A stretch of 64,000 bases of DNA from Natrinema salifodinae (GTDB taxonomy: Archaea > Halobacteriota > Halobacteria > Halobacteriales > Natrialbaceae), in the NCBI RefSeq assembly GCF_900110455.1, contig NZ_FOIS01000002.1, positions 806,001 to 870,000 on the forward strand, given 5' to 3'. The notes beneath the pieces are model-generated. The model was not told where the DNA came from. It did not search any database and was given only the letters and a program-made list of their open reading frames with translations. Both the position numbers and the translations under genes were made by a program. Shown in pieces: positions 4,891 through 53,875 of this stretch (positions are counted from its first letter, which is position 1; the number at the start of each line of letters is the position of its first letter).

Positions 4891-5988
4891 CTATCGCGTC
4901 AGCGGCTGATTGAACCCGCGCTCGCGCTCCATAACGGTCTCCCAGGTTAGTTCGCACTCGCAGGAAACCTGCTTGAAGACGGTGGGGTCCTGCCGAAGGT
5001 CGAAGTCCTTGATGGCCTTCTGGACGAGGTCGTCGCACTCGCCGCAGTTGTGCGGCCCCCGATCCGAGCCGTGTCCGACCGGGTCCGAGACGACGATGGC
5101 GTCGACGTCGGCGGTCTCCTCGAGCACGCGAGCGACCGACCACAGCCACGGCGGTCGGTAGCCGTCGTCGAAGTAGAGTTCGTCGACCATCGTGTAACGC
5201 TGGACGTTACACGGGTTCATCGAGACGGTGTGACAGCCCTCGACATCGGCGCAGCGCTCGATCGAGGAGATCATGTCGTCGGCGGCCTCGGACTCCGTGA
5301 GGAAGGGCGGCTTCATCAGGAGGTAGGCCTTGATCCCCGCGGCGGCGTCGCCGGCGTCCTCGTCGGCTGCTGCGGCCTCCGCGCAGGCGTCCTCGAAGTC
5401 GGCGAAGTCGAAGTACTTGTTCACGCAGTCGTGGCGCACGCGGTCAGTAGCCGTCTCGAGGCCGATCGCGACGTCGGTGTCAAGTCCGCGGTCGGTGAAG
5501 TCGGCGATCTTCTCGCGGTCGACGAAGTCGGGCAGCGACTCGACGACGATCCGGTCGCGGTCGGCGAAGGTCTCGGCGATCGCGTCGCGCGTCTCGGCGC
5601 CGACCTCGCGCTCGTCTAAGAACGAGCCCGACGTGTAGATCTTGATTAGTTCCGCGGGCTCGTCGGCGTTCTCGCGTTCGTGATCGAGACAGACCTCGAT
5701 CTGGTCCATCAGGGCCTCGTGAGAGACCGAGCCACCGTCGACGCTCTCGGCGACGTAGCCGCACATCGTACAGCCGCCGGCGCGGGCCCACCGACAGCCG
5801 CCCGTGTTTAGGATGATCGTCAGGCTCTGTTTGACGCCGTCGGGCGTGTTGTCCTCGTCGAGCCAGACGCGGGTGGGTTCGTGGGGATCGTAACTGGCCT
5901 CCTTGCGCGACCGGATCTCACGCATCGCCTGGTTGTGGGCGTCCATGCCCTTGCCCTGCTCGTAGACCTCGGGCGTGGGTTTACTCAT
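4891..5988 (-). CDS. raSEA: archaeosine biosynthesis radical SAM protein RaSEA
   Basis: RaSEA works with ArcS to convert preQ0-lysine adduct at tRNA position 15 into archaeosine, cleaving the lysine C-N bond by radical SAM chemistry. This 365-aa protein has the cluster motif G-G-C-R-W-A-R-A-G-G-C-T-M-C-G-Y, with Cys at about 65, 73 and 76. The spacing C-x7-C-x2-C differs from the usual CxxxCxxC. I-K-I-Y-T-S-G-S-F near 124 and I-G-L-E-T-A-T near 187 fit Elp3/MiaB-like radical SAM cores. A Cys-rich C-terminus (H-N-C-G-E-C and S-C-E-C-E-L) may hold another metal. Start chosen at the second Met (M-S-K-P-T-P-E). tgtA and arcS are 2 and 7 kb downstream on the plus strand. Confidence 0.85.
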   Translation of the reverse strand: MSKPTPEVYEQGKGMDAHNQAMREIRSRKEASYDPHEPTRVWLDEDNTPDGVKQSLTIILNTGGCRWARAGGCTMCGYVAESVDGGSVSHEALMDQIEVCLDHERENADEPAELIKIYTSGSFLDEREVGAETRDAIAETFADRDRIVVESLPDFVDREKIADFTDRGLDTDVAIGLETATDRVRHDCVNKYFDFADFEDACAEAAAADEDAGDAAAGIKAYLLMKPPFLTESEAADDMISSIERCADVEGCHTVSMNPCNVQRYTMVDELYFDDGYRPPWLWSVARVLEETADVDAIVVSDPVGHGSDRGPHNCGECDDLVQKAIKDFDLRQDPTVFKQVSCECELTWETVMERERGFNQPLTR

Positions 5989-6170
5989 TAGGAGACGCAA
6001 GCGGGCCAGCGCGTAAAGCGCCTTCGTCTGTCATCGGGACTCGCGTTCGATCCGCTCGTCTCGCATCACGACGGTTCAACGTCGGTGCTGTCGCTGCGCT
6101 GGGACGCGAGCTGAGAAAATGAGAGTCGGTCAGCGACAGTGCAACTGGCGCTGTCGGACCGCAGGTCGCG

Positions 6171-7808
6171 TTAGATGTCGGACTCGTTGTCCTCGTCTTC
6201 ACCGAGCTCGGAGTCGGTCTCGTTGTCCTCCTCGTCCGTCTCGTTCATCTCGTCGTCCGACTCGGTGTCCGTGGTCTCGCCGCTGCTGACGTCGTCGAGT
6301 TCGCTCGCGTCGCCGAGCGTGAGCGTGTCGGCGGACGCGTTCTCGATGGTAATCGACGACGCGGAGAGACTGGAGATCGTCTCGCCGGAGCTCTCGGTCT
6401 CCATCTCGTCGGATTCCGTCTCGATCTCAGTCTCGGACTCGTTGTCCTCGGTCTCCGTCTCGTTGTCCTCGGTTTCGGTCTCGTTGTCCTCGGTTTCGGT
6501 CTCAGTTTCGGTGACGTTGTCCTCGGTTTCGGTCTCGTTGTCCTCGGTTTCGGTCTCAGTTTCGGTGACGTTGTCCTCCTCGTCCGTCTCGTTCATCTCG
6601 CTGTCCTCGGTCTCCATGGCGTCGTCGCCTTCCTCGACCGAGTCGACGGACATCGACTCGATGGTTATCTCCTCGACGTCGAACTGCTCGATCGTGAGTT
6701 CCTCGATCTCCTGGGACTCGTTGTCCTCAGTTTCGGTTTCAGTCTCAGTCTCCGTCTCGTTGTCCTCAGTCTCCGTCTCGTTGTCCTCGTCCGTGGCGAG
6801 TTCGTCCTCGCTGTCGTTCGATTCGTTGTCCTCGTCCTCACTGATGTTGAAGCCCTCGTCTTCACTATCGGACTCGTTGTCCTCGTCGTCCATCGCGAGA
6901 CCGTCGCTCTCCTCGGTCTCGTTGTCGTCCGTCTCGGTTTCGTCGGCGTCCTCACCGGCCGTCAGCTCTTCGATGGTCAGCGTCTCGACGTCCATCGTCT
7001 CGATGGTGAGGTTCTGAATCGTGACCTCGCTGGCGTTCTCGTCGATCAGCTGCTCGCTCTCGGTTTCGGACGTGGCGTTGTCCTCTTCGGTCGCGTTATC
7101 TTCGGCGGTGTCAGTCTCGAGACTGTCTTCGGTCTCGTTGTCCTCTTCGGTCTCAAGACTGTCTTCAGTCTCGTTGTCCGCTTCAGTCTCAAGACTGTCT
7201 TCAGTCTCGTTGTCCTCTTCGGTCTCAAGACTGTCTTCAGTCTCGTTGTCCGCTTCAGTCTCGTTAGTCGACTCGTTCATCCCTGCGTCCGAGACGTTAC
7301 CGCCGTCTTGCTCGAGGTCCTCGAGCGATACGCCCTCGAGCTCGAGCTGCTCGAGCTGGATGTCAGAGAGGGTGACTTCCTCACTGGCAGTCTCGTTGTC
7401 CTCTTCGGACTCAAGACCGTCTTCGGTCTCGGATTCGTTATCTTCGGTATCGAGGCCGGTCTCAGTCTCTGATTCGTTATCTTCGGTATCGAGGCCGGTC
7501 TCAGTTTCGTTCTCGCTGTCAGCGGTGTCGCCCTCGTCGAGTTCGTCCTGCAGTTCCTCGACGTCAGCGTCGAACTCCTCGACGTTCAGTTCCTCGATCG
7601 TCGCGTTCTCAACGGTGACGTTATCGAGTTCGAGTGTCTCGACCTGAACGTTCTCCAGTGTCGCACTCGATTCCGTTTCCGCTTCGTCGCCCATGTCTCC
7701 GGCATCGTCGCCCGCACCCGCTGTGGCACCCGCGAGGGCAGGACCCCCCGAGAGTGCGACCAGCAGTGCGACCAGTACGACGCCGAGTTTCTGCGGTCGT
7801 GAAACCAT
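6171..7808 (-). CDS. secreted sequon-rich pentad-repeat protein (copy 1)
   Basis: A 545-aa protein of unknown function. A Sec-type signal peptide occupies residues 1-26 (L-G-V-V-L-V-A-L-L-V-A-L then A-L-A-G-A). Five short blocks have a strict five-residue period (N-V-Q-V-E / T-L-E-L-D / N-V-T-V-E / N-A-T-I-E), as expected of a beta-solenoid. They are separated by Asp/Glu/Thr/Asn linkers. By my count there are more than 30 N-x-S/T sequons, mostly N-E-T and N-E-S, so heavy N-glycosylation is likely if exported. No C-terminal anchor or sorting signal is seen. A paralogue at 51237-52628 shares the signal peptide, the five blocks in order, and the promoter. The serine-rich frames on the opposite strand are shadows. 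Confidence 0.85.
   Translation of the reverse strand: MVSRPQKLGVVLVALLVALSGGPALAGATAGAGDDAGDMGDEAETESSATLENVQVETLELDNVTVENATIEELNVEEFDADVEELQDELDEGDTADSENETETGLDTEDNESETETGLDTEDNESETEDGLESEEDNETASEEVTLSDIQLEQLELEGVSLEDLEQDGGNVSDAGMNESTNETEADNETEDSLETEEDNETEDSLETEADNETEDSLETEEDNETEDSLETDTAEDNATEEDNATSETESEQLIDENASEVTIQNLTIETMDVETLTIEELTAGEDADETETDDNETEESDGLAMDDEDNESDSEDEGFNISEDEDNESNDSEDELATDEDNETETEDNETETETETETEDNESQEIEELTIEQFDVEEITIESMSVDSVEEGDDAMETEDSEMNETDEEDNVTETETETEDNETETEDNVTETETETEDNETETEDNETETEDNESETEIETESDEMETESSGETISSLSASSITIENASADTLTLGDASELDDVSSGETTDTESDDEMNETDEEDNETDSELGEDEDNESDI
7121..7264. repeat. four 36-bp tandem repeats inside the copy-1 linker
   Basis: Four head-to-tail 36-bp units start at 7121, 7157, 7193 and 7229. 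Each encodes twelve residues E-D-S-L-E-T-E-(E/A)-D-N-E-T on the minus strand and each carries one sequon. Units alternate between Glu and Ala at one codon. The repeats are coding and contiguous. Confidence 0.9.
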
Positions 7809-8081: not shown

Positions 8082-9563
8082 ATGCGCGAGTGCTTCGAAG
8101 TCCAGGACACCGACGCCGGCGGCCGCATCGGCGACCTCACCGTCCCGCGTGCTGACGTCACCGTCGAAACCCCGGCGTTGTTGCCGGTGATCAATCCGAA
8201 CCTGGACACGATCAGTCCCCGCCGGCTCGCCGACGAGTTCGGCGCCGAAATTCTCATTACGAACTCCTATATTATCCACGGCGACGACAATCTCCGCGAG
8301 CGGGCCCGGGAGCAGGGCCTGCACGAACTCCTGGATTTCCCCGGCGCGATCATGACCGACTCCGGCTCCTTCCAGCTCTCCGAGTACGGCGAAATCGACG
8401 TCACGACCGAGGAAATCCTCGCCTTCCAGCGCGAGATCGGCTCTGACATCGCCACGCCCGTCGATATCCCGACCCCGCCGGATGTTCCCCGTGATCGTGC
8501 CGCGGCCGACCTTGAGACCACCCAGGAACGCCTGGCCGTCGCCGAGGACGCCGACACCGGCGAGATGCTCGTCAGCGCACCCGTCCAGGGCTCGACCTAC
8601 CCGGAGCTCCGCGAACGGGCCGGCCGCCACGCCGACGAAACCGATCTCGACGTCTTCCCGGTCGGCGCGGTCGTCCCCCTGATGAACGACTACCGCTACG
8701 ACGACATGGTCGACGTCGTCGCCGCCGCCAAGCGCGGTCTGGGTGGCGACGCGCCCGTCCACCTCTTCGGCGCCGGCCACCCCATGATGTTCGCGCTGGC
8801 GGTCGCGATGGGCTGTGATCTGTTCGACTCGGCGGCCTACGCGCTGTACGCCCGCGACGACCGCTACCTGACGGTCCGGGGCACCCGGGCGCTCGAGGAC
8901 CTCGAGTACTTCCCCTGCTCGTGTGCCGTCTGTACCGCCCACTCGCCCGATGAACTCCGCGCGCTCCCCGACGACGAGCGCGAGTCGGAACTGGCCGCCC
9001 ACAACCTCCACGTCACCTTCGCCGAGATCCGCCGGATCAAGCAGGCTATCCGCGCCGGCAACCTGCTGGAACTCGTCGAACAGCGCGCCCGCGCCCACCC
9101 GACGATGCTTGACGGCTACCGCACGCTGCTCGACCACGCCGCCCAGCTCGAACGCTCGGACCCGGTCTCGAAGGGCGCGTTCTTCTACACCTCCCACGAG
9201 AGCGCCCGCCGGCCAGAAGTCGTCCGCCACCACCAGCGCCTCGAACGGCTCGACGTTCCCGATACGCTCTTGCTCACCGTCGACCGATCCGCGCCCGACG
9301 CCGAGTTCGACGCCGCCTGGCGCGTCGAGCCGCCGTTCGGCCCCTTCCCCCGGGCGCTCTCGAAGAGCTATCCGCTGACCGCGGAAGTGCCCGACCGGAC
9401 CGACCGGGCCGCCCTCGAAGCCGCCGCCGACGGCGTCGCTCGCCTGGTCGCGGCGAACCCAGAGGCCGACGTCACACTCGCCCATCGCGAGTGGCCGGCG
9501 GACGCCCTCGAACGCGTCCCCGACGACGTCGAACTCGTCGATCTCACCGCGGAACGGGCGTGA
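8082..9563 (+). CDS. tgtA: tRNA-guanine(15) transglycosylase
   Basis: ArcTGT exchanges guanine-15 in the D-loop of archaeal tRNAs for preQ0, the first tRNA-level step of archaeosine formation. The 493-aa protein has the nucleophile region M-T-D-S-G-S-F-Q (Asp about 93), a second Asp in L-F-D-S-A-A-Y (about 249), and the zinc site P-C-S-C-A-V-C (Cys about 279, 281, 284). Length matches haloarchaeal TgtA. The start M-R-E-C-F-E-V matches the conserved N-terminus, which is homologous to the start of ArcS at 13371. tRNA-Pro at 61.4 kb carries a G15 that could be a substrate. Confidence 0.95.
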
Positions 9564-11175: not shown

Positions 11176-13191
11176 CTATTCCTGCGCCTGGCGACGGAGC
11201 ACGAGCGTCGTCAGCAGTCCCGCGATGACTGTGAGGCTGACACCGACACCGAAGCCGGGGATGCTGTCGCCATCGTCGGCTTCGTCTTCCTCCGCGGCTT
11301 CTTCGCTCTGGCTGCTGACGTCGAGGTAGTCGCTCATGCCGGCGGTGTCGGGCTCGGAGAATTCCTCGTCCCAGTCACCGGCCGCGTGAACGGTCGTCTC
11401 GGAATCGACGACGCCGAGGTGTTCGACGTCCGACTTGGTTGCCGTCTCGGTATCGACGCCGGCCACGTCGTCGACGTAGACGTAGATCGACGACGTCTCG
11501 TCGGCGTGTTCGCTCGCGATTCCGCTGATAGCCAGGCTGTCGCTGAACGTGTCCGTCACCGCGCTCATGTTCGCGAACTCCGCCCCGCCCTCGACGCGCA
11601 CCGTGCCGTCACCGATGTCGGCGTCGACGCGGGCGACCTCGAGTTCGGACTCGGAGAGCGCCGTCACGAACTGCTCGGTGTCCGAGGACATCGTCGTCGT
11701 GGTCGGATCGTTCTGGATCGACTCGGCCCACGCGTTGATCGCGTCGCCGGCCAGGTCCTCGGCCTCGATATCGAACTGGCCGTTGACCGTGAGTTCCTCG
11801 CCGTCGGTCTCGGCGGTCAGGCTGAAGCTGACGTCGTTTTGCGTGTCGACGCTCCGTGCCTCCAGTTCGTCGATGTAGGCGGCCCAGTTGTCAGTCTCGC
11901 TCGTGATCTCGGCGTCGAGTTCCATCTCACCGGTCGACGTCCCCTCGACGGCGACGTCCCACTCGAGTTCGGTGGTGAGATCGGCGGCCTGCTGCGCTTC
12001 GATGCCCGCGCGGGCATCCTCGAAGTCCGCCTGGTCGAACTGCTCGCTCATGGAGCTCGCTTCGGCCAGGTCGATCAGCGCGACGGTGACCTCGTCGTAG
12101 TTCGTGAGCGCGATATCCCACTCGGCCTCCATCGCTGCCCCCTGCTCGGTCATCGTGAACTCGAACGTCTCGATCCCGATGTCGGTGACGCTCTCGGCGA
12201 TCGTCTCGGCGTCCGACCGAGTCAGGTCGCTGGACGGATCGTTCGCCAGCTCGTCCGTGAGCTGTCGTTCGATCCCGTCGTCGATTCCGGTGTACTCGAC
12301 CGAGAACTCGAGTTCGAGCCGGTACTGTCCGTGGTCGCGTTCCTCGAAGTCGTAGTGGTCGATCTGAATGTCGCTCGTTCCGCCCAGGTTCGACGCGAGG
12401 GTTCCGTACTCTTCCTGAAGCGTCTGTTCGGCCTGATCGCGCGTCTCCCACCGGTCGGCCGACCAGTCGTAGACCGTTTCCTCGCGGGTCACGTCGACCG
12501 CGTAGCCGTCGGTCGTGTCATCCAGGGAGACGTCGAGGGTCGTCCCTTCGTCGTCGGCCCCCATGCCCATCGCGTAGTCGACCGTGGCGGTGCCGCTCGT
12601 CTCGAGCCGATCGGCAGTGGCGGTGACGTGTCCGTCCGTGCTGATCTCACCCGGAGCTGCGGTTCCGGAGCTCTGGAACGTGCCGGTAGCGGTCGCGTCG
12701 AACTCGTTGGTCTCGTCGGTCACCTCGCCGGTGACATCGACGGAGAGGTCCTCGACGTCCGCCGGCTGCTGCATGACGAGCGAGCCGTCGCCGGTGAATC
12801 CGTTCTGGTCGAGGACCGCCGAGAAGTTCGCTTCCTCGAAGTCGTCGTCCTGATCGTACTCGTCGACGACGAGCATATGGACCAGGCCTTCGCTGACGTC
12901 CATCCCCAGATCGAACTGGTCGACATCGGCGTCGTCGTCATCGTACTGGAGAACGGCGCTGCCGTCCTCACGGAGATAGACGTGATCGGCCGGATCGAGT
13001 TCCGATTCGGCCTGCGAGATGGTTTCGTACGATTCGACGTCGGCGTCCGCCGCTTCGGCGGTCGCCGTCGGGCCCCCGTAGGCGACTGGGAGTCCGATGG
13101 TCGCAACCCCGACGGCCGCGACCATGAGGACGGCCATAAACGCTCTGACGCCGGCCTCCGATCGCAATCTGGATCCTCTCTCTGATGCCAT
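11176..13191 (-). CDS. large secreted PGF-CTERM surface protein
   Basis: A 671-aa exported protein of unknown role. After a charged N-region, a signal helix spans about residues 17-38. The mature part is Asp/Glu/Thr-rich with several beta-rich domains of about 120 residues. The C-terminus is an acidic stretch, then P-G-F-G-V-G-V-S-L-T-V-I-A-G-L-L, then L-R-R-Q-A-Q-E. This is the PGF-CTERM layout recognised by archaeosortase A, implying removal of the helix and lipid attachment at the cell surface. The region upstream (13205-13250) is AT-rich and holds the likely promoter. It separates tgtA and arcS but need not be related to them. Confidence 0.85.
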   Translation of the reverse strand: MASERGSRLRSEAGVRAFMAVLMVAAVGVATIGLPVAYGGPTATAEAADADVESYETISQAESELDPADHVYLREDGSAVLQYDDDDADVDQFDLGMDVSEGLVHMLVVDEYDQDDDFEEANFSAVLDQNGFTGDGSLVMQQPADVEDLSVDVTGEVTDETNEFDATATGTFQSSGTAAPGEISTDGHVTATADRLETSGTATVDYAMGMGADDEGTTLDVSLDDTTDGYAVDVTREETVYDWSADRWETRDQAEQTLQEEYGTLASNLGGTSDIQIDHYDFEERDHGQYRLELEFSVEYTGIDDGIERQLTDELANDPSSDLTRSDAETIAESVTDIGIETFEFTMTEQGAAMEAEWDIALTNYDEVTVALIDLAEASSMSEQFDQADFEDARAGIEAQQAADLTTELEWDVAVEGTSTGEMELDAEITSETDNWAAYIDELEARSVDTQNDVSFSLTAETDGEELTVNGQFDIEAEDLAGDAINAWAESIQNDPTTTTMSSDTEQFVTALSESELEVARVDADIGDGTVRVEGGAEFANMSAVTDTFSDSLAISGIASEHADETSSIYVYVDDVAGVDTETATKSDVEHLGVVDSETTVHAAGDWDEEFSEPDTAGMSDYLDVSSQSEEAAEEDEADDGDSIPGFGVGVSLTVIAGLLTTLVLRRQAQE

Positions 13192-25958: not shown

Positions 25959-28256
25959 CTACTCACCGAACTCGTGGGAAAATTGAAACTCGTGCGCCTG
26001 GTCTGCGTCTGATTGTGACGAGGTCTTGAATTGATCGAGGGTGGTATGAAGCGACTGCGCCTCGCCAGCGAGTTGATTTGCGCTTACCGTAACTTCTTGG
26101 AGCGACCCGGTCTGTTCCTGTATGGCCCCTGAAACTGTTTCAGTTTCTGCAGTAACTCGGTCGCTTAGCTCCGTTGCATTGGTGATCAACCGGCTCACGT
26201 CCTGGGTTGACTCGGATTGCTGTTGAGTGAGTGACGCGATCTGCTGGACACCGTTCGATGTAGATTCAGTGTAGTCGGCAATATTTTCGAGCGCAGACAC
26301 GGTGTCCCCGATAACTTTTTTACTCTCGTCGATTTCTTCCTGCGTCATTTGAACCTCCGCCGTCGTGCGGTTGAGTTGCTTTTGGAGAGAGGTGACGGTG
26401 GTGTCGATCTCTTCTGCGGTCGCTTTTGTTGCCCTGGCCAGTTCTTTTACTTCGTCGGCAACAGTGCCGAATTCGGTCGTTTCGTCTTCCTGTCGCGATG
26501 CTTCGATATTCGCATTGAGTGCAAGGAGATCCGTCTGTTCTGCGTGCTCTGTAATAACGTCCGCCATTTTCTCGATTTGCTCCATTTGGTGTTGGAGCTT
26601 TTCGATTTCCTGAAGCGTGTTCCGAGACTCGGAATCGATCCGTGACATCGCCTCCTTTGCATCCTGGGCAGTGGACCGGCCGGCATCACCGGCCTGAGCG
26701 GTTCGTGACGCCGACTGGCTGACCGTTTCAGAAAGTGAGGCAATATCGTCGATCATGCGTGCGATCTCTTCCATCTCGGAGGCCGCCGATTGGAACATGA
26801 CGTGCTGTCGTTCGATATGAGACGAAATATCCTCCATAGACGCTGTCACCTGCTCGCTCGCGGCTTGCACCTCTTCAACATTCGCGGTGACTTGCTCACT
26901 GTGAGCCGCCACATCAGCGGCGAAGCGTTTCGGCTCTTCTATCGTCGTCTCGATATCTTCGATCATCGTGTTGTACTCCTGCTCGACCCGTTTTATCGCC
27001 TCGTTCCCCTCATCGACGTCCATCCGCTGTGTAAGGTCGCCGTCAGCGGCCTGCTCCATCACCTCGCTTGCTTCCTGTTCGAGTTGTTGGACCAGCGTTT
27101 CGAGTGTTTGCTGTCGCTCCTCGGCTTGCCGTTTCGCGGTTTCGGCCTCCGTGATCGTCTCTTGAAGCGAATCCCGCATATTACTGAAGGCAGTGTAGAG
27201 ATCTCCGATCTCGTCGTCTCGGTTCGAAGCGAGCGTCGTCTCTAAATTACCTCTCTCTACCTCGCGGGCCTTCTCCGAAAGTTGAGTTAATGCCCGAGAC
27301 GTGTTTCGACCGACAACAACTCCGATCGTCCCTAACCCGAACAGCGAGACAAGAATTAGCGCGATCACCGATCGAGTAACGTCTCGGTGAAGCGCGTAGG
27401 CGGCTTCCTTGGGGGTATGGGCCATGATCACCCAATCAGTGCCCTCGACCGGCGCATACCCCAGTGCCATCTCCGTTCCATCCACAGTCGTTTCGAGATA
27501 CCCTGTCTCACCCGCGAGACCGCGCTCCACGGCCGTCGATCGGTCATCGTCCGGCGCACTCATCGTGAACTGTTCGTCGGACGCCTTGGTATCGTAGCGT
27601 AGCACGACGTCTCCATCGGCGTTGACGACCTGCGTGAACACCGCATCCTCCAGAGAAGGAGTTGCCAGTTCGGCCGCGTGGTCATCTAGGTCGATAACGA
27701 AGATAACGCCGCGATCCGGATCCTCGGGAACGGCGCTTATAATGGCGAGAGATGACTCGTCGGTCACCGGATCGTGATACGGATCTGTTAGATGGATATT
27801 AGATTGGTTGTCACGAAGGATATCATCCTCGGCCCAATCGACACTGTGATCGCGAAAGCTAACTCCCGTTGCATTTTCGTCGCTACTGCTGAGAATTTCG
27901 TAGTCGTCCGTCTCGACGTAGTGTGCTGCAACGACGCTATCCGGGGCCGAGGAAACTTCGTTTAACAGCGTTACCTGGATCTCGTCGTCCGTCCCGCTGT
28001 TGATCACGTTCGACGCCGCCAGCGTCCGAACGTGGTGTTTGTAGCGGTCGATTCGCTCGGCCAACGTGTTCGATTGCAACTGCGTCGATTGCTCGAGTTC
28101 GTTCTCCGTTTCCGTCTCGAGAGCACTGCCAGTCTGGAAGTAAATCACGCCGCCGATAGTAGTAATAAATAGTAGTATCACTGCAAAAAGGACGAGCATT
28201 TTTCGCGAGTACGACCGTCGAATTCGGTCGGGGAGACGGTCGGATAGAGCAGTCAT
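25959..28256 (-). CDS. methyl-accepting chemotaxis transducer (Htr type)
   Basis: A 765-aa membrane receptor. TM1 is at about 20-40 (M-L-V-L-F-A-V-I-L-L-F-I-T). An extracellular dCache-like sensor follows (about 45-280), then TM2 (S-V-I-A-L-I-L-V-S-L-F-G-L-G-T), HAMP (A-L-T-Q-L-S-E-K-A-R-E-V-E-R-G-N-L), a long coiled coil, and the MCP signalling tip with E-I-D-T-T-V-T and V-A-D-E-V-K-E-L-A-R. It would signal to CheA/CheW, none of which are in the window. Start set at M-T-A-L-S-D-R; an ATG 24 codons upstream is open but adds an odd hydrophobic leader. Codons are less GC-rich than most neighbours, hinting at acquisition. Confidence 0.9.
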   Translation of the reverse strand: MTALSDRLPDRIRRSYSRKMLVLFAVILLFITTIGGVIYFQTGSALETETENELEQSTQLQSNTLAERIDRYKHHVRTLAASNVINSGTDDEIQVTLLNEVSSAPDSVVAAHYVETDDYEILSSSDENATGVSFRDHSVDWAEDDILRDNQSNIHLTDPYHDPVTDESSLAIISAVPEDPDRGVIFVIDLDDHAAELATPSLEDAVFTQVVNADGDVVLRYDTKASDEQFTMSAPDDDRSTAVERGLAGETGYLETTVDGTEMALGYAPVEGTDWVIMAHTPKEAAYALHRDVTRSVIALILVSLFGLGTIGVVVGRNTSRALTQLSEKAREVERGNLETTLASNRDDEIGDLYTAFSNMRDSLQETITEAETAKRQAEERQQTLETLVQQLEQEASEVMEQAADGDLTQRMDVDEGNEAIKRVEQEYNTMIEDIETTIEEPKRFAADVAAHSEQVTANVEEVQAASEQVTASMEDISSHIERQHVMFQSAASEMEEIARMIDDIASLSETVSQSASRTAQAGDAGRSTAQDAKEAMSRIDSESRNTLQEIEKLQHQMEQIEKMADVITEHAEQTDLLALNANIEASRQEDETTEFGTVADEVKELARATKATAEEIDTTVTSLQKQLNRTTAEVQMTQEEIDESKKVIGDTVSALENIADYTESTSNGVQQIASLTQQQSESTQDVSRLITNATELSDRVTAETETVSGAIQEQTGSLQEVTVSANQLAGEAQSLHTTLDQFKTSSQSDADQAHEFQFSHEFGE

Positions 28257-28360
28257 AGTGACAGGGAGGAAGATTGACATCGGTAAAAAGATACCGAGAA
28301 GATTTGTCTCTTTCAATGATGATATCATATATCACAATATTCAGAGAAGCCGGACTAGCA

Positions 28361-28390
28361 TACAGATTGCGTACTGCCGTACAGATTGCG
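28361..28390. repeat. 11-bp direct repeats upstream of the transducer
   Basis: TACAGATTGCG occurs at 28361-28371 and 28380-28390, start-to-start 19 bp, in the AT-rich spacer about 105 bp upstream of the transducer start. It may be a regulator site for either divergent gene. Confidence 0.4.
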
Positions 28391-28520
28391 GTGTACCGGT
28401 ATATCAGACGAATCTCGGCAAATCACACGGCTAATTCCGGCAGTGGACGATATGAGGTCTCACCGACAGAAGATGTGTCAGTGGTTGTGTATTATACCGG
28501 AAACGAAGAGGTGAAACAGG

Positions 28521-28943
28521 ATGATTTATCTTGCCGGAGTTAACTGGTCTCGTGTAATGAACGGATATTTGATGCGTGTCTCGGGGCTGTTGGGCTTCGG
28601 GGCGTGGTTTGCGCTAGAACTGTATCGACAACTGATTCAGGATCCCATCTTCTTCGGCGGGCAGGGTATTCCCCCGGAATTTGTCGTGACGGCCCAACAA
28701 TCGTTACTCGTCGGGTCGATCGTCGTAATCGTTTACGGCCAGATCCTCGCGCAGGGATCGGCGGCTAAATCGCCAGGATCGCTGCGTTCGCTCGCAATCG
28801 GAGTCCAGTGGGGTGTGCCAGTGTTGTTCGCACTCGATGCGATCGTTGATGGAATCACGTCCCTCGGGTTCTTCGCACTGGTTGCACTCTTCGCAGGGGT
28901 TATTGTCCCGATCGGGATCGTTTCTATCGATCGACCAAAGTAG
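28521..28943 (+). CDS. small integral membrane protein
   Basis: A 140-aa protein with four hydrophobic helices: L-L-G-F-G-A-W-F-A-L near 23, S-L-L-V-G-S-I-V-V-I-V-Y-G near 65, V-P-V-L-F-A-L-D-A-I near 99, and F-F-A-L-V-A-L-F-A-G-V-I-V-P-I-G near 116. No family recognised. It lies divergent from the chemotaxis transducer across an AT-rich spacer. ATG at 28521 or 28557 could be the start. Confidence 0.6.
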   Translation: MIYLAGVNWSRVMNGYLMRVSGLLGFGAWFALELYRQLIQDPIFFGGQGIPPEFVVTAQQSLLVGSIVVIVYGQILAQGSAAKSPGSLRSLAIGVQWGVPVLFALDAIVDGITSLGFFALVALFAGVIVPIGIVSIDRPK

Positions 28944-29198
28944 AGTATTGTTCGCGGCGGAAGCGAAAGTCGAGTTGGGGCGGCCCTGAACTAACGGGTC
29001 TGTTGCCAGGGAGGGAACGAATTTAGTACCGTTCAATATTACCTGTTCCATTTAGAAACATTCTTCAATAAAGAAAACTCCAACCAACATATTAAAACAA
29101 TAATACATTAGTGAATACGATATTCTTGAACGAAAGGCTTATCATACCTGATACAAATTACTGGGTATCAACCCTACCAAGTGGTTGAAATACAACAC

Positions 29199-29891
29199 AT
29201 GACAGAGAACAACAAATTTCTGACACGTCGGACAGTACTCAGATCAGGTGCCGTCACCGCAACGGTCGGTGCAGTCGGTGCCGGTGCGGTAGTCTACGGC
29301 TCACAGCCCGCGTTAGCGGCTGATACCACGTTAGGTGATAGTGGTCAAGAAGTCAGCATTCAAGCTGACGAAAATGGAGATATTAGTGCTGTTGACATCG
29401 AGCCAACGTTTGATATCTCGTGGGAAAATTTTGACAGCACTATCAGCACGGCAAACGTCGAAGTCAGCGTTACCGTTACTTCTCCAGAGCGATCTGACTC
29501 GACTGGGGAAACGATCACCTCAACATTAACGAGCGGTAATACAGTAGATCTAGACGGTTCATCTGGCGAGATCCTCGGAGCCGAAACCAACGCTAATATT
29601 GGCGTCCTAAATATTATCGGTGCAACGGATGACGAGGACGGGACAGAAATTACGAGCGCGCATTTCCCAGAGACGGAAGAGGAGAACGGCTTCACTGACC
29701 CAACTACAGTAGACGTGTCTATCGTTGTGAGCGTCGATGGGTCTGAAGACAACTATATTAGCAATAGTCTTAGCAGTATTACTGATGGTACGATCAGTGT
29801 GCTTGTAGAGCCGGGTTCTGAGATCACGGTTAGTGGTGATTCGAACCTAAGTGCTGACTCTGATGTTGACAACAATAGCACGAGCACATAA
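29199..29891 (+). CDS. Tat-exported beta-rich surface or secreted protein
   Basis: A 230-aa protein. The N-terminus T-R-R-T-V-L-R-S-G-A-V-T-A-T-V-G-A is a twin-arginine signal, with cleavage likely after A-L-A-A. The mature part is acidic, Ser/Thr-rich and beta-rich (V-E-V-S-V-T-V-T-S; V-D-V-S-I-V-V-S-V-D-G) and ends in a low-complexity tail (D-V-D-N-N-S-T-S-T). Base composition is clearly AT-richer than the window average, and an AT-rich promoter (29085-29160) precedes it. Function unknown; a secreted partner gene follows at 30086. Confidence 0.75.
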   Translation: MTENNKFLTRRTVLRSGAVTATVGAVGAGAVVYGSQPALAADTTLGDSGQEVSIQADENGDISAVDIEPTFDISWENFDSTISTANVEVSVTVTSPERSDSTGETITSTLTSGNTVDLDGSSGEILGAETNANIGVLNIIGATDDEDGTEITSAHFPETEEENGFTDPTTVDVSIVVSVDGSEDNYISNSLSSITDGTISVLVEPGSEITVSGDSNLSADSDVDNNSTST

Positions 29892-30085
29892 CGTAATCGC
29901 AGTGCTGCGATTACTATCGTAGATGCGGTTACGAGCGCGAATCGGAATTTAACCGTTTTATCCGGTAGAATACCGATGCGGGAGGGGGACGAACAGCCAA
30001 TTTCAACATGTTGGGATAGACAGCATCACTAACCACTCCAGTAAGACTGTCACGACATACTGAAACCTGTTTGCATACCCTCACA

Positions 30086-42431: not shown

Positions 42432-43892
42432 TCAGTCGCCGTTCGTTTCGTTGCCCTCCGCCTCGGCGGTCTCGTTACCGTCCCCGGTCTCGTTTCCGTC
42501 CATGTCTGCGGTCTCGTTACCGCCCATCCCGTCACCGCCCCGTTCGATCTCCTCTTGCTGGATCTCGCCCGTCGCTTCGGTTTCGCCTTGAACGGTGATC
42601 TCGCCGACCGCATCGAGTTGCGACTGATCGAGGTAGACGCCCATATCCTCTTGGGCGACGAATTCGACGGTCTGGGTCTCGCCCTCCTCGCTGGTGAAGT
42701 TCGACCGGACGTACGTGCTCCACTCGTTGGTGTCGCCGCCGCTGGCGATCACGAAGTTGTGGCCGGGCAGCGGTTCGAAGGTCATGTTTTCCGCTTCGGG
42801 CTGGTGACGACCGAGCGCGTTCTCCCACTCGACCGCGTACGTCTCGCCCGCCTCGAGTTCGAGCGGCGGGTTCTCCTCGTCGGCGATATCATCGGGTTCG
42901 ACGCCGACCCACTGGCCCTCCTCGAGCGCGAACGAGTAGGTCTCGGTCGGGTCACCCGTTTCGATCGCCGGGACCGTGACCGTGACCTCCTGACCGTCGC
43001 CGTCGACCGACACCGTGTCGGTGACCCGTTCGTGGCCGTAGGTCCAGACTTCGAGGTTGTACTCGCCGTCCTGGAGCATATCGAACCGGGCGACCGCCGG
43101 CGCGTCCTCCTCGGCCGGCGTCTCTTCCTCTTGGGCGCCGCCCATGTCCGATTCGTTTCCGGCCGTTTCGTTTCCGGCCGTTTCGTTTCCGGCCGTTTCG
43201 TTTCCGGCCGTTTCGTTCCCTCCCGTCTCGTTCCCGCCCGTCTCGTTTCCGCCTTCGTCGTCGCCTGGCTCCCGTTGGGACTGTTCCTCCTCCGGCGGGG
43301 CGGGTCGCGCGGCGATATCGGAGAACGCGTGGTACTCCTCGGAGGGGGTCCTGAGGAACACCTCGGCCTCGAGGGGGTTCCCCTCCTCGTCTTCGACCTG
43401 AACCCGGAGTTCCCGGACCTCGTCCGGACTGACCAGTTCGACCGGGCCGCGCATCTGGACCGGGTGCGGCATGCAGTAGTACTCCGCCACTCCCTCTTCG
43501 GGAGTGAACGTGAGCGAGGTGGATTCGCCTTGCTCCTCGACGAAGTCCGTCGCTTCGACCACCTCGCCGTTCTCGTCCTCGAGGACGAAGTTGTGCCGCG
43601 AACCGTCGCCGTTCGTCCAGACGACTTCGTTTTCTTCGCCTTCGATCAGTCGCAGCGTCGGGTTGGAGGCGCCGTCGATTTCCGCCGGCGCGACGCCTTG
43701 CCAGCCACCGACGAGACCCACTAACGAGAGCGTCCGTCCCTCTCCGTCGTTCTGCGTAGCCGGAAGCCGGAAATCGATCTCGTCGCGGTAGGCGCCAGCG
43801 GTGCCGGCCATCGCAGCCGTGCCGGCGATCGCCGCCCCCTTCAGTACCCCGCGACGGGAAACGTCTTCGCGTGATTGCTTTTCGTTTGACAT
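42432..43892 (-). CDS. Tat-exported two-domain cupredoxin
   Basis: A 486-aa exported electron-transfer candidate. The Tat signal is S-R-R-G-V-L-K-G-A-A-I-A. Cupredoxin domain one (about 50-155) has a full type-1 copper site: His 100 (S-R-H-N-F), Cys 140, His 143 and Met 147 (Y-Y-C-M-P-H-P-V-Q-M). A linker of seven G-G/A-G-N-E-T pentads (about 213-248) follows. Domain two (about 315-435) repeats the fold and keeps a G-H-N-F motif but lacks the Cys/His/Met ligands. The C-terminal tail again is N-E-T-rich. It is the last gene of the quinoprotein operon, 25 bp after the dehydrogenase, and is its likely electron acceptor. Confidence 0.88.
   Translation of the reverse strand: MSNEKQSREDVSRRGVLKGAAIAGTAAMAGTAGAYRDEIDFRLPATQNDGEGRTLSLVGLVGGWQGVAPAEIDGASNPTLRLIEGEENEVVWTNGDGSRHNFVLEDENGEVVEATDFVEEQGESTSLTFTPEEGVAEYYCMPHPVQMRGPVELVSPDEVRELRVQVEDEEGNPLEAEVFLRTPSEEYHAFSDIAARPAPPEEEQSQREPGDDEGGNETGGNETGGNETAGNETAGNETAGNETAGNESDMGGAQEEETPAEEDAPAVARFDMLQDGEYNLEVWTYGHERVTDTVSVDGDGQEVTVTVPAIETGDPTETYSFALEEGQWVGVEPDDIADEENPPLELEAGETYAVEWENALGRHQPEAENMTFEPLPGHNFVIASGGDTNEWSTYVRSNFTSEEGETQTVEFVAQEDMGVYLDQSQLDAVGEITVQGETEATGEIQQEEIERGGDGMGGNETADMDGNETGDGNETAEAEGNETNGD
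43152..43253. repeat. seven 15-bp tandem units encoding the cupredoxin linker
   Basis: Units of ttcgtttccggccgt repeat at 43152, 43167, 43182 and 43197 without change, then three diverged units follow. Each gives one N-E-T or N-E-S sequon on the minus strand, so the linker is likely glycosylated. Recent expansion is implied by the identical copies. Confidence 0.9.
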
Positions 43893-51236: not shown

Positions 51237-52628
51237 ATGGTTTCACGACCGCGAACACTCGGTGTCGCGTTCGTTGCCGTGCTCGTCGTGCTCGCGGGGG
51301 GTCCCGCCCTCGCCGGTAGCACGACCACGAGCGCGGCCGCGGACGACGATGCCGGAGACATGAGCGCACCGAGCGCGACGCTCGAAAACGTACAGGTCGA
51401 GACGCTGGAACTCGAGAACGTCACCGTCGAGAACGCGACGATCGAGGAACTCAGCGTTCAAGAGCTGGGCATCGAGGACAGCGAGGAACTCGAACAAGAA
51501 CTGAACGATACCGAAGACGGGGGCGAAGACAACCAGTCCGAGGGCGACGAGAACCAAAGCGATGGCGCTGAGAACCAGAGCGCCGAGGGAGATAACCAGT
51601 CCCAACAGGAAGTGACGATCTCAGACGTCTCCTTCGAGACGCTGGCCCTCGAGAACGTTTCTGTCGACGATCTCCAGACCGACGGAGGCGGCATGGACGG
51701 TAACCAGACCGATGCCGGCAACGAGTCGGAGGACGGTAACCAGACCGACGCCGAAGATGGCAACGAGTCAGCCGAAGACGGTAACCAGACCGAAGCTGAT
51801 GGCGGCAACGAGTCGGAGGACGGCAACCAGTCCGCCGAAGACGGCAACGAATCGGCCGAAGACGGCAACGAGTCGACCGGGATCGACCAGGTGATCGGCG
51901 AGGACGCCGACAACGTGACGATCCAGGACCTGACGATCGAGGAGATGAACGCCGAACAGCTGACGATCGAGAACCTCAACGTCGAGGAAGACGAGGGCGG
52001 CATCCTCTCGGGTATCTCCGACTTCGTCGGCGGTCTGTTCGGCGGTGACGGCGGCGACGGTGGCGATGGTGGCGACGGCGGCGACGGCGGCGCGAACGAG
52101 TCCGACGCCGGCGGCGAAGAGATCGAGGCGCTGACCATTGAGCAGTTCGACGTCGACGAGATCACCGTCGAGACGATGGACGTCAACACCCTCGAGAGCC
52201 AGGACGGCGGGAACCAGACGGCCGAAGACGGCAACGAGACGGAAAACGAGACGAACGAAACCGACGACGAGGCGGCCGCAGGCGAAAACGAAACTGACGA
52301 GGGCGAAGACGGTAACGAGACCGAAGCCGATGGCGGCAACGAATCGGCCGAAGATGGCAACGAGTCAGCCGAAGACGGCAACGAAACCGCCGCGGACGGA
52401 GCTGAGGGCGAGACGATCTCGTCACTCTCCGCGGGGACGATGACGATCGAAAACGTCACCGCTGATACCGTTTCCCTCGGCGAAACAGAGGGGCTACAGG
52501 ACGCACTCGAACAGCAACAGTCCGACGGCGGCAATCAGACCGACGACGGGAACGAATCTGACAACGAGTCAGACGGGGGCGGCGGCAACGAGTCTAACGG
52601 CGGCGACGAGGGCATGGCACTCGGCTGA
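51237..52628 (+). CDS. secreted sequon-rich pentad-repeat protein (copy 2)
   Basis: A 463-aa paralogue of the 6171-7808 protein. The signal peptide (M-V-S-R-P-R-T-L-G-V-A-F-V) and five pentad blocks match in order: V-E-T-L-E-L-E-N-V-T-V-E-N-A-T-I near 55; D-V-S-F-E-T-L-A-L-E-N-V near 130; V-T-I-Q-D-L-T-I-E-E-M near 228; L-T-I-E-Q-F-D-V-D-E-I-T-V near 300; I-S-S-L-S-A-G-T-M-T-I near 395. The linkers differ: here Gly/Asn/Gln-rich with N-Q-S, N-Q-T, N-E-S and a G-D-G run, but still over 30 sequons by my count. There is no C-terminal anchor. Function unknown; secretion and glycosylation inferred. Confidence 0.85.
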   Translation: MVSRPRTLGVAFVAVLVVLAGGPALAGSTTTSAAADDDAGDMSAPSATLENVQVETLELENVTVENATIEELSVQELGIEDSEELEQELNDTEDGGEDNQSEGDENQSDGAENQSAEGDNQSQQEVTISDVSFETLALENVSVDDLQTDGGGMDGNQTDAGNESEDGNQTDAEDGNESAEDGNQTEADGGNESEDGNQSAEDGNESAEDGNESTGIDQVIGEDADNVTIQDLTIEEMNAEQLTIENLNVEEDEGGILSGISDFVGGLFGGDGGDGGDGGDGGDGGANESDAGGEEIEALTIEQFDVDEITVETMDVNTLESQDGGNQTAEDGNETENETNETDDEAAAGENETDEGEDGNETEADGGNESAEDGNESAEDGNETAADGAEGETISSLSAGTMTIENVTADTVSLGETEGLQDALEQQQSDGGNQTDDGNESDNESDGGGGNESNGGDEGMALG

Positions 52629-52737: not shown

Positions 52738-53304
52738 CTATTTTCGGTCCGGTCCGCGCTCCTCGAACAGGCGATAGTACGAGAGAGCGAGTACCGTCCG
52801 CCCGTCGCGGATTTCGTTGTCCGCAACTGCATCCGTCAGCTCGTCGAACGACCGCGTCCGAACGCGAATGCTCTCGTTGTGATCGAGTCGCTGTTCAGCG
52901 GTCGGCCGACAGCCCCGGGCGACGAAAAAGTGTAAGACGGCGTCCGCGATCCCGTTGGCTGGCTCGACGGTCACGAGCGGCTCGAGCGACTCGGCCTCGT
53001 AGCCCGTCTCCTCGGCAAGTTCCCGCCTGGCCGCGGCCTCGAGATCGTCGTCTTCGGGTTCGGTGCCGCCGACGGGGAGGCCGCGGCTGATCCGGGAGAC
53101 CGCCTGGCGCCACTCCTCAATGCAGACGACGTCGCCGTCGGGGGTAAACGGCAGGACGCAGACGCTCGGCGGTTCCGAGAGGTAATCGAACTCGGTTTCA
53201 GTGCCGTCCGGCAGTTGAACGGATTCGTTAACAACATCAAAACCGGGACAAGAGTAGGCTACTCGGCGCTCGGTGGTCTCCCAGGCGAGTCGATCGTCCG
53301 ACAT
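52738..53304 (-). CDS. NUDIX hydrolase (ADP-ribose pyrophosphatase-like)
   Basis: A 188-aa Mg-dependent pyrophosphohydrolase. The NUDIX box is G-G-T-E-P-E-D-D-D-L-E-A-A-A-R-R-E-L-A-E-E-T-G-Y near residue 84, with the R-E-L-x-E-E core intact and one extra residue in the loop. V-C-V-L-P-F-T and E-W-R-Q-A-V precede it, as in ADP-ribose or nucleoside-diphosphate-sugar hydrolases. Start at M-S-D-D-R-L-A-W; upstream open codons look intergenic. Confidence 0.85.
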   Translation of the reverse strand: MSDDRLAWETTERRVAYSCPGFDVVNESVQLPDGTETEFDYLSEPPSVCVLPFTPDGDVVCIEEWRQAVSRISRGLPVGGTEPEDDDLEAAARRELAEETGYEAESLEPLVTVEPANGIADAVLHFFVARGCRPTAEQRLDHNESIRVRTRSFDELTDAVADNEIRDGRTVLALSYYRLFEERGPDRK

Positions 53305-53599
53305 AGCGGCTGCTACGGCAGTGGCCGTCAAAAACGCCGCGTCACGCATGCGTCGTCGCCGACGCGCGTCGCTACGGCTGGCGGAATCACCGGCACGGAA
53401 GCGGTTCTACGTGGTGCCTTCCGCCCGCTCGGCGGTTCGCGTTCGGGTCGGTTCTGACGCGGACTGCACGCGCGACGGCCAGGCGGACGACGACCACCGT
53501 TGTCCCGGTTTCATCTCCCGTTAAAGGCCGTCCCGGACGCCTTGGCCGCTTCATAACAAAACCACAGGACGGTGAACGTCGTCACTCAGAGGGTGATCC

Positions 53600-53875
53600 A
53601 TGGACCAGCTCACTGGCTTCCAACGTGACCTATTGTACGTGATCGCAGGGAAAGACCGGCCGTCAGGGCAGGAGATTCTCGACGATATCAATGACTATAT
53701 CGAGCAGCCGGTCACCCACGGCCGGCTATATCCGAACCTCGATACGCTCGTCGAGAAGGACCTCGTCGAGAAGGGACAACTCGACCGACGGACGAACTAC
53801 TACGCGCTGACGCCGAAGGGCCGACGCGCGCTGCAGCGCCGTCAGGAGTGGGTCGACCAGTACGTCGACGTCTGA
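53600..53875 (+). CDS. PadR-family transcriptional regulator
   Basis: A 91-aa winged-helix protein: F-Q-R-D-L-L-Y-V-I-A-G near residue 7, S-G-Q-E-I-L-D-D-I near 22, recognition helix V-T-H-G-R-L-Y-P-N-L-D-T-L near 38, and the wing N-Y-Y-A-L-T-P-K-G near 66. Stand-alone PadR proteins act as dimers, often responding to stress. The preceding 295 bp (53305-53599) hold no gene. Confidence 0.88.
   Translation: MDQLTGFQRDLLYVIAGKDRPSGQEILDDINDYIEQPVTHGRLYPNLDTLVEKDLVEKGQLDRRTNYYALTPKGRRALQRRQEWVDQYVDV

Follow-up and report, generated by a model that had tools for sequence, protein, structure and literature searches.

The closest described counterparts of the protein family analysed here belong to four different systems. 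Pentapeptide-repeat proteins, which fold into a right-handed quadrilateral beta-helix (PF00805/PF13599), share with the family a strict pentad period and two inward hydrophobic positions per pentad. However, their repeats follow the motif A-(D/N)-L-x-x, whereas the family places V/I/L together with L/M/A inward and scores below the Pfam cut-off; its predicted solenoid would also be broken at four points by disordered loops, each about 16-180 residues long. Pentapeptide_4 (PF13599) is the best Pfam match of the joined blocks of the family, below the cut-off (E 0.0038, 17.7 bits against a cut-off of 38).

The halomucin of Haloquadratum walsbyi is secreted, acidic and putatively glycosylated, and has been proposed to form an aqueous negative shield (PMC1544339). 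It comprises 9159 aa with mucin-like domains, whereas members of the family measure about 340-780 aa, lack such domains and are built on a core of five blocks; the giant, mucin-like multidomain plan is not that of the protein from which this analysis started, which has 545 aa and no Pfam domain. The haloarchaeal S-layer glycoprotein (TIGR04216) has secretion, N-x-S/T sites (sequons) and acidity in common with the family, which differs from it by the absence of PGF-CTERM or any other C-terminal anchor, by far denser sequons and by the lack of a sequence match.

Acidic cell-surface polymers are an established device of alkaliphiles (PMC8153356), and an extracellular cytochrome c segment of alkaliphilic Bacillaceae, rich in D/E and Asn, has been proposed to act as a proton ('H+') capacitor (PMC12457358). 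The linkers of the alkaliphilic family members share this richness in D/E and Asn, and the teichuronopeptide and acidic S-layer of alkaliphilic Bacillus (PMC8153356, PMC12457358) resemble the family in being polyacidic surface material tied to high pH. The Bacillus polymers are non-homologous to the family and of unrelated architecture, and the comparison is one of function only.

A secreted five-block protein and its family

The window, a stretch of 64,000 nucleotides from Natrinema salifodinae, carries a minus-strand open reading frame with an ATG start (gene A) that encodes five blocks joined by four linkers (Table 1). Asp and Glu make up 42% of its product, Lys and Arg occur once each over the entire chain, and the predicted pI is 4.05. 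An earlier note on this DNA had described a secreted protein devoid of an anchor. Secretion is supported by the Sec-type signal of gene A. As to the anchor, neither a lipobox nor a C-terminal hydrophobic segment was found in the gene A sequence, and PGF-CTERM is absent as well (the C-terminus reads ...EDNESDI, with 0 NCBIfam matches). The signal sequence, however, has a mean pairwise identity of 73% among 29 aligned proteins and, because it is conserved to the same degree as the blocks, it may act as an uncleaved N-terminal anchor.

Table 1. Features of genes A and B and their neighbours (positions refer to the window, aa numbers to the gene A protein)
Feature	Position	Strand	Evidence or remark
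Gene A (P0001), 545-aa secreted five-block protein	6171..7808	-	ORF; relatives in 28/28 other Natrinema genomes searched
Sec-type signal sequence MVSRPQKLGVVLVALLVALSGGPALAGA, aa 1-28	7725..7808	-	Sequence; conservation unusually high in family
Block 1, aa 50-80	7569..7661	-	Lag-5 autocorrelation 0.79; 72% identity, gap-free; modelled as beta with high pLDDT from residue 63 onwards
Linker 1, aa 88-142, acidic, rich in sequons	7383..7547	-	29% identity, 42% gaps; pLDDT mostly <50
Block 2, aa 144-166	7311..7379	-	AlphaFold, alignment, periodicity
Linker 2, aa 168-254	7047..7307	-	36/72-nt DNA tandem repeat encoding DNETEDSLETE units; AlphaFold, alignment
Block 3, aa 258-286	6951..7037	-	AlphaFold, alignment, periodicity
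Linker 3, aa 287-365	6714..6950	-	Without the amphipathic segment present here in B-type members; alignment
Block 4, aa 366-394	6627..6713	-	AlphaFold, alignment, periodicity
Linker 4, aa 395-473	6390..6626	-	54-nt DNA tandem repeat encoding ETETEDNETETEDNVT; AlphaFold, alignment
Block 5, aa 475-506, periodicity weakest	6291..6386	-	AlphaFold, alignment, periodicity
Acidic C-terminal tail, aa 508-545, anchorless	6174..6287	-	Sequence
Radical-SAM protein, presumably the archaeosine synthase RaSEA (our own reading of the protein sequence)	4891..6000	-	Adjoins A in other Natrinema too
Archaeal tRNA-guanine transglycosylase TgtA, divergent from A	8082..9563	+	PF01702, 4.8e-86; syntenic across Natrialbaceae
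Gene B, 463-aa paralogue with the same five blocks, 33 sequons, DGNESAE linker units	51237..52628	+	
NUDIX hydrolase, neighbour of B	52738..53349	-	Syntenic
PadR-type regulator, neighbour of B	53600..53875	+	Syntenic

Members of the family were found in 29 of the 29 Natrinema genomes searched, in several further genera and in most of the sampled Natrialbaceae, where they occupy one syntenic locus; a profile built from 37 members matched 85 of 293 genomes of the order and 33 of 87 genera. The full gene A protein gave no family match in Pfam or NCBIfam, a single-protein search of PDB sequences returned no family assignment, and a literature search on the family, or on the loss of sequons in haloalkaliphiles, brought up no paper on either. 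In agreement with the earlier note, which knew of no description, this is a previously undescribed family of secreted haloarchaeal proteins.

Other haloarchaeal families hold more distant relatives, whose homology is less sure given the weakness of the pentad matches (E about 1e-10 to 1e-4). Some of them have TTE-rich linkers and a C-terminal domain that is weakly CARDB-like, below the cut-off, and others are compact, almost linker-free proteins of about 250 aa. Among the compact secreted relatives, those of one haloarchaeal family (L124-L130) have four blocks of pentads along with an insertion, the motif RSIWNVPGGxLFDPGV. A third, weak match in the genome of the window itself (G000:C3:737154) was discarded, being an acidic lipoprotein-like open reading frame that has no blocks.

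Conserved blocks and a predicted solenoid core

Hydropathy in the blocks is strongly periodic, with lag-5 autocorrelations of 0.79, 0.68, 0.72 and 0.62 in blocks 1-4 and a weaker value of 0.32 in block 5, and with a best Fourier period of 2.5-2.6. Among 29 aligned members from many genera the blocks align without gaps, at mean identities of 50-72%. In the AlphaFold model of gene A each block reaches a pLDDT of about 90 and forms one continuous beta strand by DSSP. The pTM of this model is 0.44, though 372 of the 545 residues have a pLDDT below 50; the model of a 338-aa B orthologue with short linkers gives the same picture (pTM 0.52). The five blocks of five-residue period that the earlier note had read from the sequence, and their solenoid-like character, are thus matched by the autocorrelations and by the structure prediction. 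For that note, blocks predicted to be disordered and lacking conservation among relatives would have spoken against its reading; what was found is high-pLDDT beta structure, conserved and gap-free in the 29 aligned proteins.

Since the pTM is high for a chain of which two thirds are disordered, and since the strands assigned by DSSP are unable to pair with themselves, we infer from the models that the five blocks would pair with one another, stacked in one solenoid core. The weak sequence matches of gene A and of its blocks are mostly to beta-solenoid structures or models: the full P0001 protein matched the designed pentapeptide solenoid 4yc5 (E 0.022), and the joined blocks matched the 'putative adhesin' 3pet (E 0.0029), which we take to be a beta-solenoid. 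Searches with both AlphaFold models by Foldseek and VIA-align returned only noise-level matches and no similar solved structure. Linkers make up much of both models, and their interruption of the core is probably the cause of this failure.

Concerted turnover of the linkers

The linkers are predicted to be disordered (AlphaFold pLDDT below 50) and show 29-34% identity with 36-46% gaps in the alignment of 29 members; in some members they separate the blocks by as many as 118-181 residues. The acidic linkers of D-N-E-T/S-type units reported earlier proved to be encoded by tandem repeats in the DNA of gene A, with periods of 21, 33, 36 and 54. Their units are specific to the species, as illustrated by DNETE, DGNESAE, NGVDTDDDE, ENDVEEDE and AATDAAIQDDDD. 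Linkers of one and the same protein share 20% of their 5-mers, compared to 3.5% shared with the orthologous linker of another species and 2.4% with a shuffled partner. The linkers evolve in concert within each protein and turn over completely, which makes these loops a clear case of concerted evolution in disordered segments that are interleaved with conserved blocks.

Paralogue B and gene order

The usual order in Natrialbaceae is arcS - tgtA (divergent) - A - B - NUDIX - padR, with A and B often in tandem. In Natrinema, A stays by tgtA, together with the RaSEA-like gene, and B by the NUDIX gene and padR; in the window, about 43 kb lie between A and B, and the two fall in different clades of a tree computed from the blocks only. 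With the neighbours divided between A and B in this way, the two genes of the window are an ancient tandem pair that has come apart. Between them, at positions 26000-30000 of the window, lies a region of lower G+C (0.49-0.55), with a methyl-accepting chemotaxis protein at 25959-28328.

Between its third and fourth blocks, gene B carries an extra amphipathic segment, GGILSGISDFVGGLFGG (window 51996-52046, plus strand). Segments of this kind are conserved in B-type members (among them L007, L013, L055 and L068) and absent from A-type members, and they are possibly membrane-associating.

Sequon density in gene A and its relation to habitat in the family

The earlier note had counted about 36 N-x-S/T sites and called the density extreme. 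The count is exactly 36, with 36 of the 38 Asn of gene A placed in sequons, compared to 9.0 +/- 2.5 (maximum 18) in 2000 shuffles of the mature protein. Linkers and tail hold 31 of the 36, the other five being located in blocks (63, 68, 258, 266 and 490). Among the 47 open reading frames of the window with at least 200 aa, gene A and its paralogue at 51237 rank highest (36 and 33), followed by a count of 13. The load of gene A is not unique, as seen in this paralogue and in a Haloterrigena salina protein with 53 sequons. In addition, the earlier idea that glycan-studding is a trait of the architecture as such does not stand, for soda-lake orthologues with the same five blocks have 0-5 sequons (Natronoglomus 11).

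Habitats were assigned on the basis of species names and general knowledge. On this assignment, 55-95% of Asn lie in sequons in neutral-brine lineages and 0-33% in soda-lake lineages, and 64 of 65 scored proteins split accordingly. A line drawn at 50% of Asn has 42 of 43 neutral proteins above it (the exception reaches 48%) and 22 of 22 alkaliphile proteins below it. Most neutral-brine members hold 17-53 sequons, at z +7 to +16 over shuffles, whereas soda-lake members hold 0-5 with 8-43 Asn available, at z -2 to +2. The soda-lake set comprises Natronococcus, alkaliphilic Natrialba, Natronorubrum, Natronolimnohabitans, Natronosalvus, Natrarchaeobius and Salinadaptatus; for Natronococcus amylolyticus, a reference list gives the description haloalkaliphilic. 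An intermediate sequon state is seen in Halopiger, Halobiforma, Natrialba asiatica, Natronoglomus and Halostagnicola. The sequon-count rows L007, L010 and L013 belong to other genera of the family Natrialbaceae and not to Natrinema.

On the block-only tree the sequon trait changes at least six times. Independent habitat contrasts amount to four on supported branches and six on all branches, with none in the opposite direction, and are too few for a firm test (sign test p 0.125). In block 1, the sequon sites Asn63 and Asn68 keep Asn in 12 of 36 alkaliphile cells of the alignment and mostly show Asp instead, whereas the non-sequon Asn53 and Asn75 keep it in 29 of 36, both counts being drawn from related and hence non-independent sequences. 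Because sequon Asn are replaced while neighbouring non-sequon Asn are kept, the loss of sequons in alkaliphiles looks selective. Alkaliphile linkers are also poor in Ser and Thr, and this low content is part of how their sequons vanish. Soda-lake members consist of 41-57% D+E, and the more D+E a protein contains, the lower its sequon density (Spearman -0.80).

The possibility that alkaliphile secretomes are devoid of sequons as a whole was ruled out, given that other large surface proteins of these species retain them. Among large surface proteins whose C-terminal region contains a PGF motif, those of alkaliphiles hold 52 sequons where 41.9 would be expected, and those of neutral species 107 where 73.4 would be; a weaker general trend pointing the same way is visible (0.59 sequons per 100 aa in alkaliphiles, 1.25 in neutral species).

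AglB and putative glycosylation

The idea that alkaliphiles lost their sequons because they had lost AglB was likewise ruled out, as every soda-lake genome examined has AglB over the cut-off. Named loci gave access to 22 genomes in total, those from soda lakes among them, and AglB is over the cut-off in each. In the window's own assembly (G000), by comparison, no canonical AglB was detected: there is no TIGR04154 match over the cut-off, while 28 of 28 other Natrinema have one; a protein search with AglB found no match; the WWDYGH codon pattern is absent, while present in three of three control Natrinema; and a shared nucleotide neighbourhood of the missing aglB was sought in this genome and not found. 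An STT3-like 817-aa paralogue in the same genome (L151:2010-4463) matches the AglB_L1 domain and has no WWD motif. Three explanations present themselves: the assembly has missed aglB, the strain has lost it, or the STT3-like paralogue acts in its place. As a canonical AglB is not detectable in the window's own assembly, glycosylation of gene A cannot be assumed, and in this genome it appears doubtful, even though the evolutionary past of the gene may speak for it.

A putative surface polyanion and its alternatives

We propose, at about even odds, that the family consists of secreted structural proteins of the cell surface or extracellular matrix, in which a stacked core bears disordered polyanionic loops whose sequons were selected in neutral brines and purged in soda. 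Each of the five blocks, with 25-35 residues, would contribute roughly one coil to a beta-solenoid of the pentapeptide type, and the coils would stack as a small rigid core. From it, the four linkers and the tail would project as disordered loops, giving a bristle-like and strongly hydrated polyanion. In neutral-brine species, including the Natrinema of the window, these loops would have been selected for dense N-glycosylation sites, and in soda-lake species the same loops would be bare Asp/Glu/Asn polymers. Tandem-repeat expansion would renew the loops and homogenise them inside each protein, with the core held constant. A hydrated polyanionic component of surface or matrix is suggested by the anatomy of core and loops, by the extreme net charge and by the carboxylates that take the place of glycan sites; hydration, proton retention, cation binding and shielding against phages or proteases may be the properties under selection.

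We speculate further, with rather less confidence than an even chance would warrant, that selection has repeatedly switched the loops of a conserved surface solenoid between an N-glycan brush in neutral brine and, in soda, a bare polyacid purged of sequons, that glycan and carboxylate are equivalent routes to a single surface property, and that alkaliphiles actively avoid sequons despite having AglB.

The tandem repeats of the linker DNA could also be taken to mean that sequons are a mere by-product of slippage amplifying DNET/NES repeats, with nothing glycosylated and with the linkers serving as neutral spacers whose acidity suits high salt and nothing else. The species-specific units, homogenised within each protein, would fit this, as would the undetectable AglB of the window's own genome. 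Yet A and B place 95% and 85% of their Asn in sequons despite their unlike units (DNETE and DGNESAE), other Natrinema members with unlike linkers reach 75-95%, the sequon state tracks habitat in separate lineages, and slippage does not predict that alkaliphiles would lose the sequon Asn of block 1 while keeping the non-sequon ones; we consider this account unlikely, if the best placed of the three alternatives. A different objection concerns the core. The blocks could be separate beta beads on a disordered string that pair between molecules into a fibre or matrix, for which one could cite the long distances between blocks in some members and the frequent occurrence of the family in two tandem copies. 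The pTM of 0.44-0.52 and the high pLDDT of every block in single-chain models agree better with an intramolecular core, and almost linker-free relatives exist, so that such a string seems improbable.

Marginally more improbable still is a role of the acidic loops in binding metals or divalent cations, as a polyaspartate-like sink or a mineral-controlling matrix protein, with glycans that only tune solubility in neutral brines rich in Mg and Ca, soda brines being poor in both. The high D+E content of soda-lake members and its inverse relation to sequon density speak for such binding; against it, no defined metal site is conserved, and conservation resides in the hydrophobic blocks and not in the linkers.

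The contrast between neutral and soda-lake lineages, found four to six times on the gene tree, opens to testing the long-standing question of the purpose of dense N-glycosylation at archaeal surfaces, and with it whether such glycosylation is costly or of no use when the pH is high. The family thereby offers a natural test of how the sugar coat of a cell surface adapts to pH.

Sequon-bearing proteins elsewhere in the window

Two other proteins of the window bear on the distribution of sequons. The product of 11176-13191 (minus strand) is secreted and has a PGF-CTERM-like C-terminus; its orthologues have 0 sequons in alkaliphilic Natrialba and Natronosalvus and 4 in N. asiatica. An unrelated protein with a Tat signal and a plastocyanin domain (42432-43892, minus strand) has a linker and tail of the same NET-type sequons, 13 in number. 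NET tails with up to 17 sequons are found in its orthologues from several Natrinema and from Haloterrigena salina, and the Natronococcus orthologue is linker-free, with 0 of 10 Asn in sequons.
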